A stretch of 24,171 nt of DNA from IMG/VR virus record IMGVR_UViG_3300034954_000027, positions 1 to 24,171 of that record; one strand, 5' to 3'. Both the position numbers and the translations under genes were made by a program. The notes under the pieces were generated by a model. It did no database searches. It saw only the letters and a program-made list of their open reading frames with translations, and had not been told where the DNA came from. Positions 20,351 through 24,171 of the stretch are shown one piece after another. The number at the start of each line of letters is the position of its first letter. Within the stretch, counting starts at the first letter, position 1. This DNA comes from a virus.

Positions 20351-21694
20351 TTAATATATTCTAATGCCTGTTCGTTTGCCCGCATGAGCATAAAGTGGAT
20401 TAAACTCCCTCCATACTAAATAACCTAGTGCGTCATTCATGTGGTCGTAACCAGCGTCTTTGTCTGGTTCGCCCTTATCTGTATAACTTTGTAACTCCAA
20501 ACATTCAATCATACGTTTGCAACTGGCATTGATTTGTAAACGTACTTGCCCTTTTCCGTTGCATAACAAACCCTGTACGGCAGAGACTCTATCTCTGATT
20601 GCTGGATTGCTTTTGGCTGAAAGATTAGTGAAGCCATAGGATTCAAGAATCTGTATGTCTGTTTTTGCTGCATTAGTACTACGATTGCCACCCGATGCGT
20701 CAGGGTAGACATAAATCTTATTAGAAGGATATCTACGTTTGATTTCTTGGGCAAGTGCGTCTGTATCATGTGCAGATACAATCTCATCAATTATTAACAA
20801 TTTTCCTTCTAATTTAATTCCTATCACCGCGCTCATGTTTCCAATATTAAAATCTACCCCTATCCTTAATGGTTCTAATTGAATACTTGGAATCGTATCT
20901 GTAATGTTATCTTCTCTTACGAATCTGTCATATACCTGCCCTGTTGTTAGATTGGTGAACTCTCCATTAAGGTAGGCCTGCAACATACTAGAATCGTAAT
21001 TTGCTTGCATTCTTTCAATAAAATCTTTTGGTAAATGTGGGTTGTCTTGTGTCCTCATTCTTATAAGTTTTCTGTCTGTTCTTTCCTGTGCTGCCTCTGA
21101 TCCAAAGGTATTCCACATCCATCTAAAACCCTCTGGTGTGCTTGCTGCACAGAACTGCCTGACATTGCCAGATCTTAACCTACCTAGAATCTTTGGAAAT
21201 GCTCTATCACAAACAGATGGGGAAACTGTATCAATCTCGTCTGCCAACACGAAAGCCAAATTTAGACCTATTATCCTAGACCAGTTTTCAAAGCTTCTAC
21301 ATAATATTTTTGTATCACCTTCAGGTAAGTGCAAAACGTATTCAGGTAATGGACTAGCCCTGTATGAGTAAGGTATCTCATAATTTTCTAAAAATTGTTC
21401 AAAGTCATTTTGCCAAATATCTCTAATCAATGCACCAGTAGGCTCTAAAACTGCCCCTGTAAAACCTACATTTAATGCTGCAAGTTTTACACATACTGCA
21501 CAAAGCGCTCTAGTTTTCCCTGCACCATAACCAGCTGATAGTCCTAATATTTCTGTATTGCTGTTATCAAAAAACTCTCTCTGTGGTTCGTGAAGATCAT
21601 TTCTAATATTTGCTAATAATTGTTTTATATCAATCGAAACTCCGCTAGTGCCTGCAATATCTAATACTGATCCTTCTCTAGTTAAGATGCTCAT
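20351..21694 (-). CDS. terL: Terminase large subunit
   Basis: A 447-aa packaging motor. ATPase domain: Walker A AGYGAGKT (54-61) and Walker B LAFVLADE (D152, E153), then a coupling motif near AASTPEG (183-189). Nuclease domain (RNase H fold): RIGVDFNIG with D281, YVYPDASGG with D332, and DHMNDALGYLVW with D417/D421, the expected acidic metal-binding residues. Length and order are typical of a complete TerL. It cuts concatemeric DNA and drives it into the prohead through the portal. The ATG overlaps the TerS stop (ATGA), so expression is coupled. I cannot tell the packaging strategy (cos, pac) from sequence alone. Confidence 0.96.
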   Translation of the reverse strand: MSILTREGSVLDIAGTSGVSIDIKQLLANIRNDLHEPQREFFDNSNTEILGLSAGYGAGKTRALCAVCVKLAALNVGFTGAVLEPTGALIRDIWQNDFEQFLENYEIPYSYRASPLPEYVLHLPEGDTKILCRSFENWSRIIGLNLAFVLADEIDTVSPSVCDRAFPKILGRLRSGNVRQFCAASTPEGFRWMWNTFGSEAAQERTDRKLIRMRTQDNPHLPKDFIERMQANYDSSMLQAYLNGEFTNLTTGQVYDRFVREDNITDTIPSIQLEPLRIGVDFNIGNMSAVIGIKLEGKLLIIDEIVSAHDTDALAQEIKRRYPSNKIYVYPDASGGNRSTNAAKTDIQILESYGFTNLSAKSNPAIRDRVSAVQGLLCNGKGQVRLQINASCKRMIECLELQSYTDKGEPDKDAGYDHMNDALGYLVWREFNPLYAHAGKRTGIRIY

Positions 21695-22014
21695 GTTGTG
21701 ATCTGTGCAATCTTAGCCATTGAATTAATACAACCCAAAGCAACGTGTAATTGGTTGTTGTTTCTAGCCTCTTTTTGTAGGGTAGAAAGCTGGCTTAAAA
21801 TGTCCGCGGTAAACTGCCTTCTGTCGATGTCAAAATCTTTCTTAAGAATGATACGGGCATCTTGGATATACTGTTCTGTTTGTCTTAACTTCAACCCCCA
21901 CTCAGCCGCGGTATATTTTATGATTTCTGACCGCGTTACACCTCGCGCTAGAAACGCTGCAATTTTGAAAGTTCTATAATCTTTTTCTGACTGTGTAGCC
22001 TTCTTTTTTTTCAC
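21691..22014 (-). CDS. terS: Terminase small subunit
   Basis: A 107-aa helical protein starting at GTG, which overlaps the upstream TAG (TAGTG). It starts with a Lys-rich segment, then a helix-turn-helix-like region (TFKIAAFLARGVTRSEIIKY, about 15-34, then AAEWGLKLRQTEQYIQDARI, about 36-55), and a C-terminal helical part with LHVALGCINSMAKI (about 89-102). The position immediately before TerL and this two-part architecture indicate the DNA-recognition subunit of the terminase. It should bind the packaging start site and regulate TerL. It is coupled in translation to both the dioxygenase gene before it and TerL after it. Confidence 0.87.
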   Translation of the reverse strand: MKKKKATQSEKDYRTFKIAAFLARGVTRSEIIKYTAAEWGLKLRQTEQYIQDARIILKKDFDIDRRQFTADILSQLSTLQKEARNNNQLHVALGCINSMAKIAQITT

Positions 22015-22799
22015 TATTTTTCTAGATTGTGAAAGGAATCAAGCGCGTACCAAACGTGAGAGTTTCGATATCCTCCCTGATGTGTAGGGATAATCGGTGT
22101 AACTCCGTGCCTATTACGCCAAGCTGGATATACCAATAATGAATTATCGGTTTGGTCAAACGTGGCATTGTAATCAGGTACGTGCAAGTTACCTCCCTTA
22201 CTGTTACGCCTTTTGGTAATTATCATATTTATAGCACCTTTTACATTGGCGTGGTCTTGATGAACAGGTGCGGATATATTGCAATTCGAGATAGTAGAAC
22301 TGAAATTATTAGCGAAACGCCAGTTATCAGGTATTCTTTGCTTTATCTTGAACAAGTGATTTTCAGCTACTGTTGGAATATATTTTTTTACTATTTCAAA
22401 AGATTTTATACCAGCTGCATACATAGCTTTAACGAAAGTATTAGCAGACTTAACTGAATGAACAGATGATCTAGTTGCGTATGGCCTTCTCATGTGTGGT
22501 TTAGGTGGACATGAACCCAAGATAGTTGAATACTGTAATACTTCAGCTTTTTTGTTATGTAAACCACTAGACCTTTTCATTTCTGATTTAGGTACGCGCT
22601 TCGTATGTATTTCTCTGTCAGCTATATTCACAAGGTTCTGTAAATCGTCTGGCAAAGTTTTTATAAACAAACCCACAGGAGTACCATCTGGGTCTATTAG
22701 AATGCAATCTTCAAAAATATTAGGCTCAAAACCGCCTACACTATCTCCAATCTTTAAAGGAGAAGTTACTGGCTTCAGGATTAGTTCAGGTAGTTTCAT
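22014..22799 (-). CDS. 2-oxoglutarate/Fe(II) dioxygenase, TET/JBP-like
   Basis: A 261-aa protein with the C-terminal signature of TET/JBP-type nucleic acid dioxygenases: ISAPVHQDHANVKGAI with H180 and D182, GG at 202-203 with LHVPD, then HGVTP with H231, and GYRNSHVWYAL with R245. This is the H-x-D ... H iron triad and the 2-oxoglutarate-binding Arg. The spacing and the GG-x-L-x-V-P and H-G-V-T-P segments fit the TET/JBP branch better than prolyl hydroxylases. Residues 1-150 are a less recognisable N-terminal region. By family knowledge such enzymes oxidise 5-methylcytosine or thymine in DNA; the substrate here is unknown. It overlaps the methyltransferase gene before it (ATGA) and the terminase small subunit after it. 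Confidence 0.8.
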   Translation of the reverse strand: MKLPELILKPVTSPLKIGDSVGGFEPNIFEDCILIDPDGTPVGLFIKTLPDDLQNLVNIADREIHTKRVPKSEMKRSSGLHNKKAEVLQYSTILGSCPPKPHMRRPYATRSSVHSVKSANTFVKAMYAAGIKSFEIVKKYIPTVAENHLFKIKQRIPDNWRFANNFSSTISNCNISAPVHQDHANVKGAINMIITKRRNSKGGNLHVPDYNATFDQTDNSLLVYPAWRNRHGVTPIIPTHQGGYRNSHVWYALDSFHNLEK

Positions 22800-23497
22800 C
22801 TTTTAAAACAATAAACCATAATACATGGCGGAAACCAGCTTTCACCCCACATATTTATATCTCTCTCCTCATAGTGAATAGTTTTGTATGGTGCTTCAAC
22901 TTTATACTTTAGCTTTTGCTTTTCTATAACTTTCCATATCTTGGGTAACTCTGGGTCAATATCAAAACTCCATTCATAGACAAGTTTATTAAAGTCGCTT
23001 TTTGTATGGGTAAGTATTGGTATTTCTGCCCCTTCTATATCCATTTTGCAGTTATCAGCTAATACAGCTTGCTCATCAAAATTTAGACAAGGCACTCTTA
23101 TAGCTTTATTACTCTTCTTTTTCATTATGGTATTGCGCCATACATTACCATTTTGGGCTATGGATAGGGTTGTATCTTTTCTAAAATCATGCACTAAAGC
23201 AGCTTGTTTAACTGTTATGGCATTTTGAAAGCCATTAAGTTTTGCATTTTTTTCAATTAATTCACAATTAAAAGGGTCTGGCTCATAAGTAATTACAGTT
23301 GCACCTTTAGAAGCTGCTAACAAAGAGAAAGCACCAACATTACCGCCACAATCTAACCAGCTTTCATTATTAAGGACTTCCATACCTTTTTTTAGGTAAG
23401 ATTGATTAGATAGAACCTCTATGAAAGTCTTAATGTCGGAGTAGCCTTCTCTGTAGAAGAATTTAACTCCGTTTAAAGAAGTTTTGGTTAACTTCAT
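22796..23497 (-). CDS. FkbM-family SAM-dependent methyltransferase
   Basis: A 233-aa class I methyltransferase. SAM-binding motif I is WLDCGGNVGAFSLL (47-60, D49 and the G-x-x-x-G loop), followed by YEPDP (71-75, acidic residue E72 for the ribose) and NAKLNG. The motif KMDIEGAE (151-158, D153) is the FkbM family mark. The N-terminal EGYSDIKTFIEVL resembles an FkbM-like form I recall from marine phages. FkbM enzymes are mostly O-methyltransferases; the acceptor here is unknown. DNA 5-methylcytosine motifs (PCQ, ENV) and adenine DPPY are absent, so it is not a standard DNA base methylase. It overlaps the ParB-like gene (TAATG) and the dioxygenase gene (ATGA), suggesting a joint pathway. Confidence 0.85.
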   Translation of the reverse strand: MKLTKTSLNGVKFFYREGYSDIKTFIEVLSNQSYLKKGMEVLNNESWLDCGGNVGAFSLLAASKGATVITYEPDPFNCELIEKNAKLNGFQNAITVKQAALVHDFRKDTTLSIAQNGNVWRNTIMKKKSNKAIRVPCLNFDEQAVLADNCKMDIEGAEIPILTHTKSDFNKLVYEWSFDIDPELPKIWKVIEKQKLKYKVEAPYKTIHYEERDINMWGESWFPPCIMVYCFKR

Positions 23498-24114
23498 TAG
23501 CTTAATGCTTTAAGCGCGTTTACTAGCTCTTGGCCTATGTAGATACCTTTTTTTCTTGCTTGTGCTACTACTTCTTTTGCCTCTTCATAATCTTCTGGTC
23601 GAAATTCTATCTGTATTGCCTTCATTACATCATTAGCTAGTTCGCTGGTAGGGTCGTCAAAATCATCTAATGAACCGTAATCAGGATCATCAGCAAAGGT
23701 TGGCACATCATCGCCCCAGCCTAAAACAGATAAATCAAAACCATTTTCCATTAGTGCTTCTAATTCTTGTTTCAATATGTCATCGTCCCAACTAGAGTTT
23801 AAAGCCAGTTGATTATCTGCAATTATGTAAGCTCTACGCTGATCTGGTGTTAGATGTGAAAGTGTAATAGTTGGAACTGTTTCTAGTCCAATCTTTTTTG
23901 CAGCTGCAATACGACCATGACCACAAACAACATTACCCATGTCATCAATTAGTACAGGATTAGTAAACCCAAACTCCTGTAGTGAGATTGCTAATCTTTC
24001 TATCTGAACATCACTATGAACTCTAGGATTATCTTTATAAAGGGTTAAATCTATTATTCTTGATTGTTTAATATCCTCAGGTGAGAAGATTGGCAACTTT
24101 GTTGTTGTAGTCAT
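23497..24114 (-). CDS. ParB-like (ParB/sulfiredoxin fold) domain protein
   Basis: A 205-aa protein from the ATG at 24114. ParB-N domain: IDLTLYKDNPRVHS (about 21-34), QEFGFTNPVLID, VVCGHGRIAAAKKIGL (62-77) and ADNQLALNSSWDDDIL (99-114). This version most resembles the ParB-like domains that often sit at the N-terminus of phage DNA methylases, but no methylase domain follows; the rest is an acidic linker and a helical end (EEAKEVVAQARKKGIYIG). An in-frame GTG at 24138 would add 8 residues, but the ATG overlaps the upstream stop (ATGA), the rule in this operon, so I chose it. The function may be DNA binding, nicking or nucleotide binding linked to the modification genes downstream. Confidence 0.87.
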   Translation of the reverse strand: MTTTTKLPIFSPEDIKQSRIIDLTLYKDNPRVHSDVQIERLAISLQEFGFTNPVLIDDMGNVVCGHGRIAAAKKIGLETVPTITLSHLTPDQRRAYIIADNQLALNSSWDDDILKQELEALMENGFDLSVLGWGDDVPTFADDPDYGSLDDFDDPTSELANDVMKAIQIEFRPEDYEEAKEVVAQARKKGIYIGQELVNALKALS

Positions 24115-24171
24115 AGCGAGATAGTTAACTGTCCACACTTTAGCTCTTTTTTTGACAGGTACACTTCTTTA
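24111..24171 (-). CDS. C-terminal end of an upstream gene, cut by window edge
   Basis: An open frame enters from the right edge and ends with TGA at 24113-24111, overlapping the ATG of the ParB-like gene (ATGA). Only 19 residues are visible (KEVYLSKKELKCGQLTISL). The overlap style matches the other junctions of this operon, which supports a real gene end, but the stretch is too short for identification. Confidence 0.5.
   Translation of the reverse strand, partial: KEVYLSKKELKCGQLTISL

Follow-up and report, generated by a model that had tools for sequence, protein, structure and literature searches.

Introduction

Hypermodification of phage DNA by TET enzymes is already known, as are the TET-associated glycosyltransferases (TAGTs, PF20691). 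Phages reportedly encode islands in which a TET, a C5-cytosine methylase and a glycosyltransferase together hypermodify 5-methylcytosine (5mC), and to our knowledge the characterized phage TETs act on 5mC. Here we analyze a 24,171-nucleotide stretch of the viral record IMGVR_UViG_3300034954_000027 (the window), which comes from a marine cyanophage and has 87% nucleotide identity to Prochlorococcus phage MED4-117 across its cassette-terminase-portal side. Here, genes for a stand-alone ParB-like protein, an FkbM-family methyltransferase and a TET/JBP-type dioxygenase form a cassette that leads directly into the terminase genes. The cassette shares its oxidizing step with the known systems and, like the 5mC islands, combines a phage TET with a tailoring enzyme. 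It differs in that no C5-methylase was found and an FkbM-type methyltransferase occupies the tailoring slot, in that this slot is swappable, and in its constant place before the terminase.

We propose, with a probability of roughly 0.7, that the cassette is a DNA-base hypermodification module expressed with the packaging genes, in which TET would generate 5-hydroxymethyluracil (5hmU), FkbM would convert it to 5-(methoxymethyl)uracil and the ParB-like protein would target the sites. A text search of the literature returned no paper linking FkbM with a phage TET; the main phage-TET papers fell outside that search.

The dioxygenase has a TET/JBP fold and an intact ligand set

The 261-residue dioxygenase (22014..22799, minus strand, as are all genes described here) has Tet_JBP (PF12851) as its sole Pfam match, at E=3.6e-6 and 26.7 bits; its actinophage relatives score 17.7-32.2 bits against the same profile. 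A single-sequence search of the PDB gave nothing useful. An AlphaFold2 model (predicted local distance difference test score, pLDDT, 90.4) was used for fold comparison, which could have favored prolyl hydroxylases, but the top 26 PDB matches are all the TET/JBP DNA dioxygenases CcTet, TET2, CMD1 or NgTET1, with E-values from 8e-11, followed by FTO and AlkB. Prolyl hydroxylases are absent from the top 50 matches, and that identity was discarded. The protein also matches a 2OGFeDO JBP1/TET phage protein (E=2.5e-22, template modeling score 0.80). The TET/JBP reading of the first-pass annotation is thus borne out.

The Fe(II) ligands H180 and D182 lie in an HQDHAN segment (H180-x-D182 at 22254..22262), the third ligand, H231, in HGVTP (22107..22109), and the 2-oxoglutarate-binding R245 in GYRNS (22065..22067). 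Re-reading the sequence returned the open reading frame (ORF) positions, these four residues and the GGNLHVP and HGVTP segments exactly as first annotated. In a profile hidden Markov model alignment, albeit with weak scores, HQDHAN falls on HRDLHN of TET2, pairing N185 with the Asn of that motif, and HGVTP...GYRNSHVWY falls on HATTP...RISLVFY, pairing H231 with HATTP and R245 with the Arg of RISLVFY. H180, D182, H231 and R245 are invariant across 27 aligned relatives, including actinophage-type proteins at 22-26% identity, and the alignment retains H180, D182, N185, GG-x-L, HGVTP and GYR-x-S down to 22% identity. The window enzyme therefore has in common with TET2, NgTET1, CcTet, CMD1 and JBP1/2 (PF12851) the fold, the HxD...H...R set and the HxDxxN motif. 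Unlike them, it is a small, stand-alone phage protein, at 10-14% identity, coupled to ParB, tailoring and terminase genes. Its TET/JBP fold and ligand set are settled, and DNA is very likely its substrate.

FkbM and TAGT exchange places in the middle of the cassette

The FkbM-family (Methyltransf_21) S-adenosylmethionine (SAM)-dependent methyltransferase (22796..23497, 233 aa) exceeds the thresholds of both relevant models, scoring 45.8 bits against PF05050 (cut-off 22.7) and 58.7 bits against NCBIfam TIGR01444 (cut-off 37.7). In cellular genomes the FkbM matches reach only 25-35% identity, and none has a ParB or TET gene nearby. IMG/VR relatives of the dioxygenase keep the order ParB-X-TET-terS-terL-portal, where X is FkbM, TAGT (34-60 bits against PF20691, cut-off 27.5) or nothing. 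The replacement is sharpest between L045, which carries FkbM, and L078, which carries TAGT: their DNA sequences share 93.5% identity through ParB and 93.4% over the 2.3 kb that begin exactly at the TET ATG, whereas the genes in between are unrelated to each other, though of nearly equal length. Boundaries at these same places recur in two further pairs, L021/L027 and L044/L048, in which one member cleanly lacks FkbM. Mapped onto a tree of 98 dioxygenase sequences, the middle-gene label requires 11 changes, an approximate count from a quick tree, and well-supported branches mix types. The FkbM contigs tested carry no TAGT elsewhere, and the TAGT or "none" contigs carry no FkbM; L078 alone departs from this pattern, with a remotely related FkbM-like gene well away from its cassette.

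The T6 TAGT (beta-glucosyl-HMC-alpha-glucosyltransferase) adds a sugar to glucosyl-hydroxymethylcytosine (PMC13216743). This family fills, in close relatives, the slot held here by FkbM, which is an unrelated, SAM-dependent enzyme. Since FkbM and TAGT trade places, the simplest reading is that FkbM acts on the same hydroxyl as a base glycosyltransferase; the shared slot leads us to infer that this acceptor is a hydroxyl on the base. The earlier proposal that FkbM is a tailoring partner is accordingly far better founded now. The window protein would then be a candidate DNA-base O-methyltransferase from the FkbM family, and the natural exchange of caps between phages ~93% identical around them offers a ready experiment on what each cap protects against.

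A stretch of ~25-30 residues in TET (about residues 67-98 of the window protein) also changes with the FkbM/TAGT swap while its flanks remain alike (L045 1852-2634 versus L077/L078), and takes the form DRKRPL...KRRYLV.SQYS typical of TAGT-linked TETs. It is possibly a partner- or substrate-specific loop. L069, L079 and L080 deviate, and as a strict marker of the partner gene the loop (tested over window residues 72-95) holds only partly.

The three genes are linked to each other and to the terminase

The gene order of the cassette was seen in well over 100 loci of IMG/VR, a count in which some contigs appear twice. Ratios of nonsynonymous to synonymous substitution rates (dN/dS) against L021 are 0.02 for FkbM, 0.06 for TET and 0.11 for ParB, and all three genes are under strong purifying selection. 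The recurrence and the low dN/dS argue that the cassette is not a chance arrangement. We surveyed FkbM neighborhoods in IMG/VR with a divergent FkbM member as query, taking the best 80 of 199 matches; more distant FkbM proteins may differ. TET lies directly downstream of FkbM in all 80 loci and ParB upstream in 79, the lone exception being cut at a contig end. Where a large ORF is present within 3 kb (64 loci), it belongs to a terminase cluster in 61, and in the other 3 a DNA-methylase-like gene intervenes. Named through the Pfam classes of their representatives, the terminase clusters fall into three classes (Terminase_6, Terminase_3 and gpA), and the small genes that precede the terminase differ among loci. 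The suggested association with packaging genes thus extends across three terminase classes. It may reflect mere late timing or something closer, and it brings up the possibility of a mechanistic connection between base modification and packaging.

The ParB-like gene (23497..24114) encodes a stand-alone ParB-N-domain protein of 205 aa from its ATG, or 213 aa from an alternative GTG start at 24138. It scores just below the cut-off of Pfam ParB_N (PF02195; E=3e-5, 24.4 bits against 26.3) and matches ParB-like PHROG families with E-values down to 8e-46. In relatives, too, ParB lies upstream of FkbM, TAGT or TET.

Distant relatives keep ParB and TET, with FkbM or other tailoring genes

Among other phage records just one matches this FkbM, that of Pelagibacter phage HTVC112P, a cultured SAR11 phage (30% identity). 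Its genes (L256 2974-5196) run in the order ParB, TET, FkbM and a small helix-turn-helix gene, with terL further on. The neighbor annotated there as "DnaJ/SNF2" scores 103 bits against Tet_JBP, well above the cut-off, and is ~25% alike to the window TET over part of its length. Because the same three families recur in HTVC112P, reordered and far diverged, a chance association is very unlikely.

Distant TETs (22-26% identity) also occur in actinophages, behind ParB and before the terminase. The cassettes of Gordonia phage Wooper, Rhodococcus phage Tonitrus and Mycobacterium phage PRodriguez share with the window a leading ParB, a homologous TET and a downstream terminase, and likewise vary in their tailoring genes. 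Theirs, however, are predicted to transfer amino acids or sugars: actinophage cassettes add an amino acid:DNA transferase (ADDT), a P-loop nucleotide kinase 3, TAGT and a PIG-L deacetylase, and no FkbM was found in those examined.

A predicted route to 5-(methoxymethyl)uracil

Family membership, slot and gene order suggest the following route. The substrate of the TET/JBP-type enzyme would be a 5-methylpyrimidine in phage DNA, whose methyl group it would hydroxylate; most likely it would convert thymine to 5hmU. FkbM would then cap the new hydroxyl with a SAM-derived methyl group, giving 5-(methoxymethyl)uracil as the predicted product, where the TAGT of relatives would attach a sugar instead. 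The ParB-N-domain protein may recruit the enzymes to, or confine them at, particular sites or sequences in the DNA. The mark would be added late, on DNA about to be packaged, and would shield the virion genome against the nucleases of the next host. We know of no natural DNA that contains 5-(methoxymethyl)uracil. The route predicts a measurable and apparently undescribed nucleoside, 5-(methoxymethyl)-2'-deoxyuridine (monoisotopic mass 272.10), expected in the already isolated phages MED4-117, MED4-184/P-HS2 and HTVC112P. The broader proposal, that marine and freshwater phages share a cap-swapping ParB-X-TET module upstream of the terminase in which FkbM at X yields 5-(methoxymethyl)uracil and ParB targets a sequence, is more tentative, and we hold it at somewhat short of even odds.

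Several points weigh against this route. The Tet_JBP score of the single dioxygenase lies under the curated cut-off of 34.9 bits. The structural model of FkbM is of no more than fair quality (pLDDT 77), and the folds that match it best are generic Rossmann RNA or protein methyltransferases, so the structure does not fix the acceptor. FkbM genes elsewhere in phages seem to serve glycans. The argument for thymine leans on distant actinophage relatives, and two FkbM-type contigs, those of L034 and L040 (L162 and L161), encode a C5-cytosine methylase outside the cassette. Several contigs are incomplete, which makes absences there weak.

Alternative bases, products and purposes

Thymine is nevertheless the base that our analysis favors. 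Of 29 genomes or contigs examined, 2 had a C5-cytosine methylase; the enzyme was not found in MED4-117, HTVC112P, five actinophage relatives or 20 of the 22 other cassette contigs, and of the window's own genome the analysis covered the 24-kb record. The whole MED4-117 genome yielded neither this enzyme nor TAGT, in agreement with the first-pass remark that no standard 5mC methylase or glycosyltransferase was visible. ADDT and the P-loop kinase family are thymine-hypermodification enzymes, and several earlier works reportedly tie families of these types to 5hmU chemistry. No ADDT or kinase gene was found in the window cassette, which has only FkbM, TET and the terS-like gene between ParB and terL. 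The preference for thymine arises because the C5-methylase is mostly missing and the actinophage relatives carry these 5hmU-linked families. TET could instead oxidize 5mC that a C5-methylase of the host, or occasionally of a phage, had produced, and FkbM would then O-methylate the resulting 5-hydroxymethylcytosine to 5-(methoxymethyl)cytosine. The best fold matches are indeed mostly 5mC dioxygenases, as reportedly are the characterized phage TETs, and two FkbM-type contigs do encode the methylase; set against its absence from nearly all the other genomes and the thymine-type partners of the relatives, these points leave the cytosine route improbable in our estimation.

The product and purpose may also differ from those proposed. 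The cassette might not act on DNA at all, the dioxygenase and FkbM modifying a glycan, a protein or tRNA with ParB unrelated. Most FkbM enzymes O-methylate glycans or natural products, and one phage FkbM adjoins tail-fiber and mannosyltransferase genes. Yet the closest folds are DNA dioxygenases, both ParB and TET accompany FkbM in 79 of the best 80 loci, and FkbM is exchanged for a TET-associated glycosyltransferase, which together make a non-DNA role highly improbable. TET enzymes are also able to oxidize past the hydroxymethyl stage, and acceptor specificity cannot be read from an FkbM sequence; TET could thus form 5-carboxyuracil for FkbM to convert to a methyl ester, or FkbM could methylate another position, leaving a DNA modifier with a product other than the methoxymethyl base. 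The use of the same slot by glycosyltransferases whose substrates are modified bases with a hydroxyl group (T6 TAGT, PMC13216743) favors the hydroxymethyl intermediate, and we judge this variant quite unlikely. The purpose alone would change if the mark served mainly packaging or regulation at ParB-bound sites, steering the terminase or labeling late DNA, rather than as armor against restriction. The position of the cassette directly upstream of terS-like and terL genes in phages of three terminase classes, and ahead of the terminase in HTVC112P and the actinophages as well, speaks for such a role. A place in the late operon is, however, expected from simple timing as well, and a changeable cap (FkbM, TAGT or none) fits an arms race better than it fits a packaging signal. 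We regard a packaging mark as a minority possibility and anti-restriction protection as the preferred purpose.

Neighboring genes, database labels and other tailoring sets

The cassette is followed by a terS-like gene (21691..22014, 107 aa) and by terL (20351..21694, 447 aa). The successive junctions from ParB through FkbM, TET and terS to terL read TAATG (1-base overlap), ATGA (4), TAGTG (1) and ATGA (4). The overlaps of 1-4 bases described in the first-pass annotation are therefore present, but the genes are not "fused": they overlap and are at most translationally coupled. Its terminase assignment stands for terL, which exceeds the cut-offs of Terminase_6C (34.3 bits) and Terminase_6N (25.8 bits). 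The terS assignment is putative, drawn from size, place and a helix-turn-helix look; profile searches returned no confirming Pfam or NCBIfam model, and the match is to phrog_34910, a family with no assigned function. A terS-like gene sits between cassette and terL in relatives too. In some freshwater relatives (L197 6809-7477; L207), a DNA-methylase-like gene with a DPPY motif separates the small gene that follows TET from terL.

The gene block of the window is also present, misleadingly named, in MED4-117 and MED4-184. TET-like proteins are labeled "queuine tRNA-ribosyltransferase" or "DpdA-like" in RefSeq, GenBank and PHROGs (NC_020857.1 CPWG_00022; phrog_6059), and those of HTVC112P and S-CBWM1 "SNF2 DNA repair protein"; these labels look like propagated misannotations. 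For the window protein, the queuine/DpdA identity was rejected on its sole Pfam match, Tet_JBP, and its TET-like fold. Mycobacterium "singleton DpdA" phages are treated in a paper on 7-deazaguanine (PMC6884629). Likewise set aside was "DNA methylase", the name given to the ParB gene of MED4-117; it was probably inherited from other phages, in which ParB domains are fused to methylases. Our analysis corrects these wrong public labels.

In Synechococcus phage DSL-LC02 (L259 3377-7087), an FkbM gene lies with a mannosyltransferase gene and tail fibers, so a phage FkbM is not always tied to DNA. Nonlabens phage P12024L (L258 6001-8266) encodes an HTVC112P-type TET, with no annotated ParB alongside, followed by another tailoring set, a gene labeled beta-glucosyl-HMC-alpha-glucosyltransferase and a methyltransferase. 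Gene 4 of Mycobacterium phage LilMcDreamy (L085 2656-3759), within a TET-ADDT cassette, resembles aspartyl/asparaginyl beta-hydroxylases and possibly performs a second oxidation, that of the attached amino acid.

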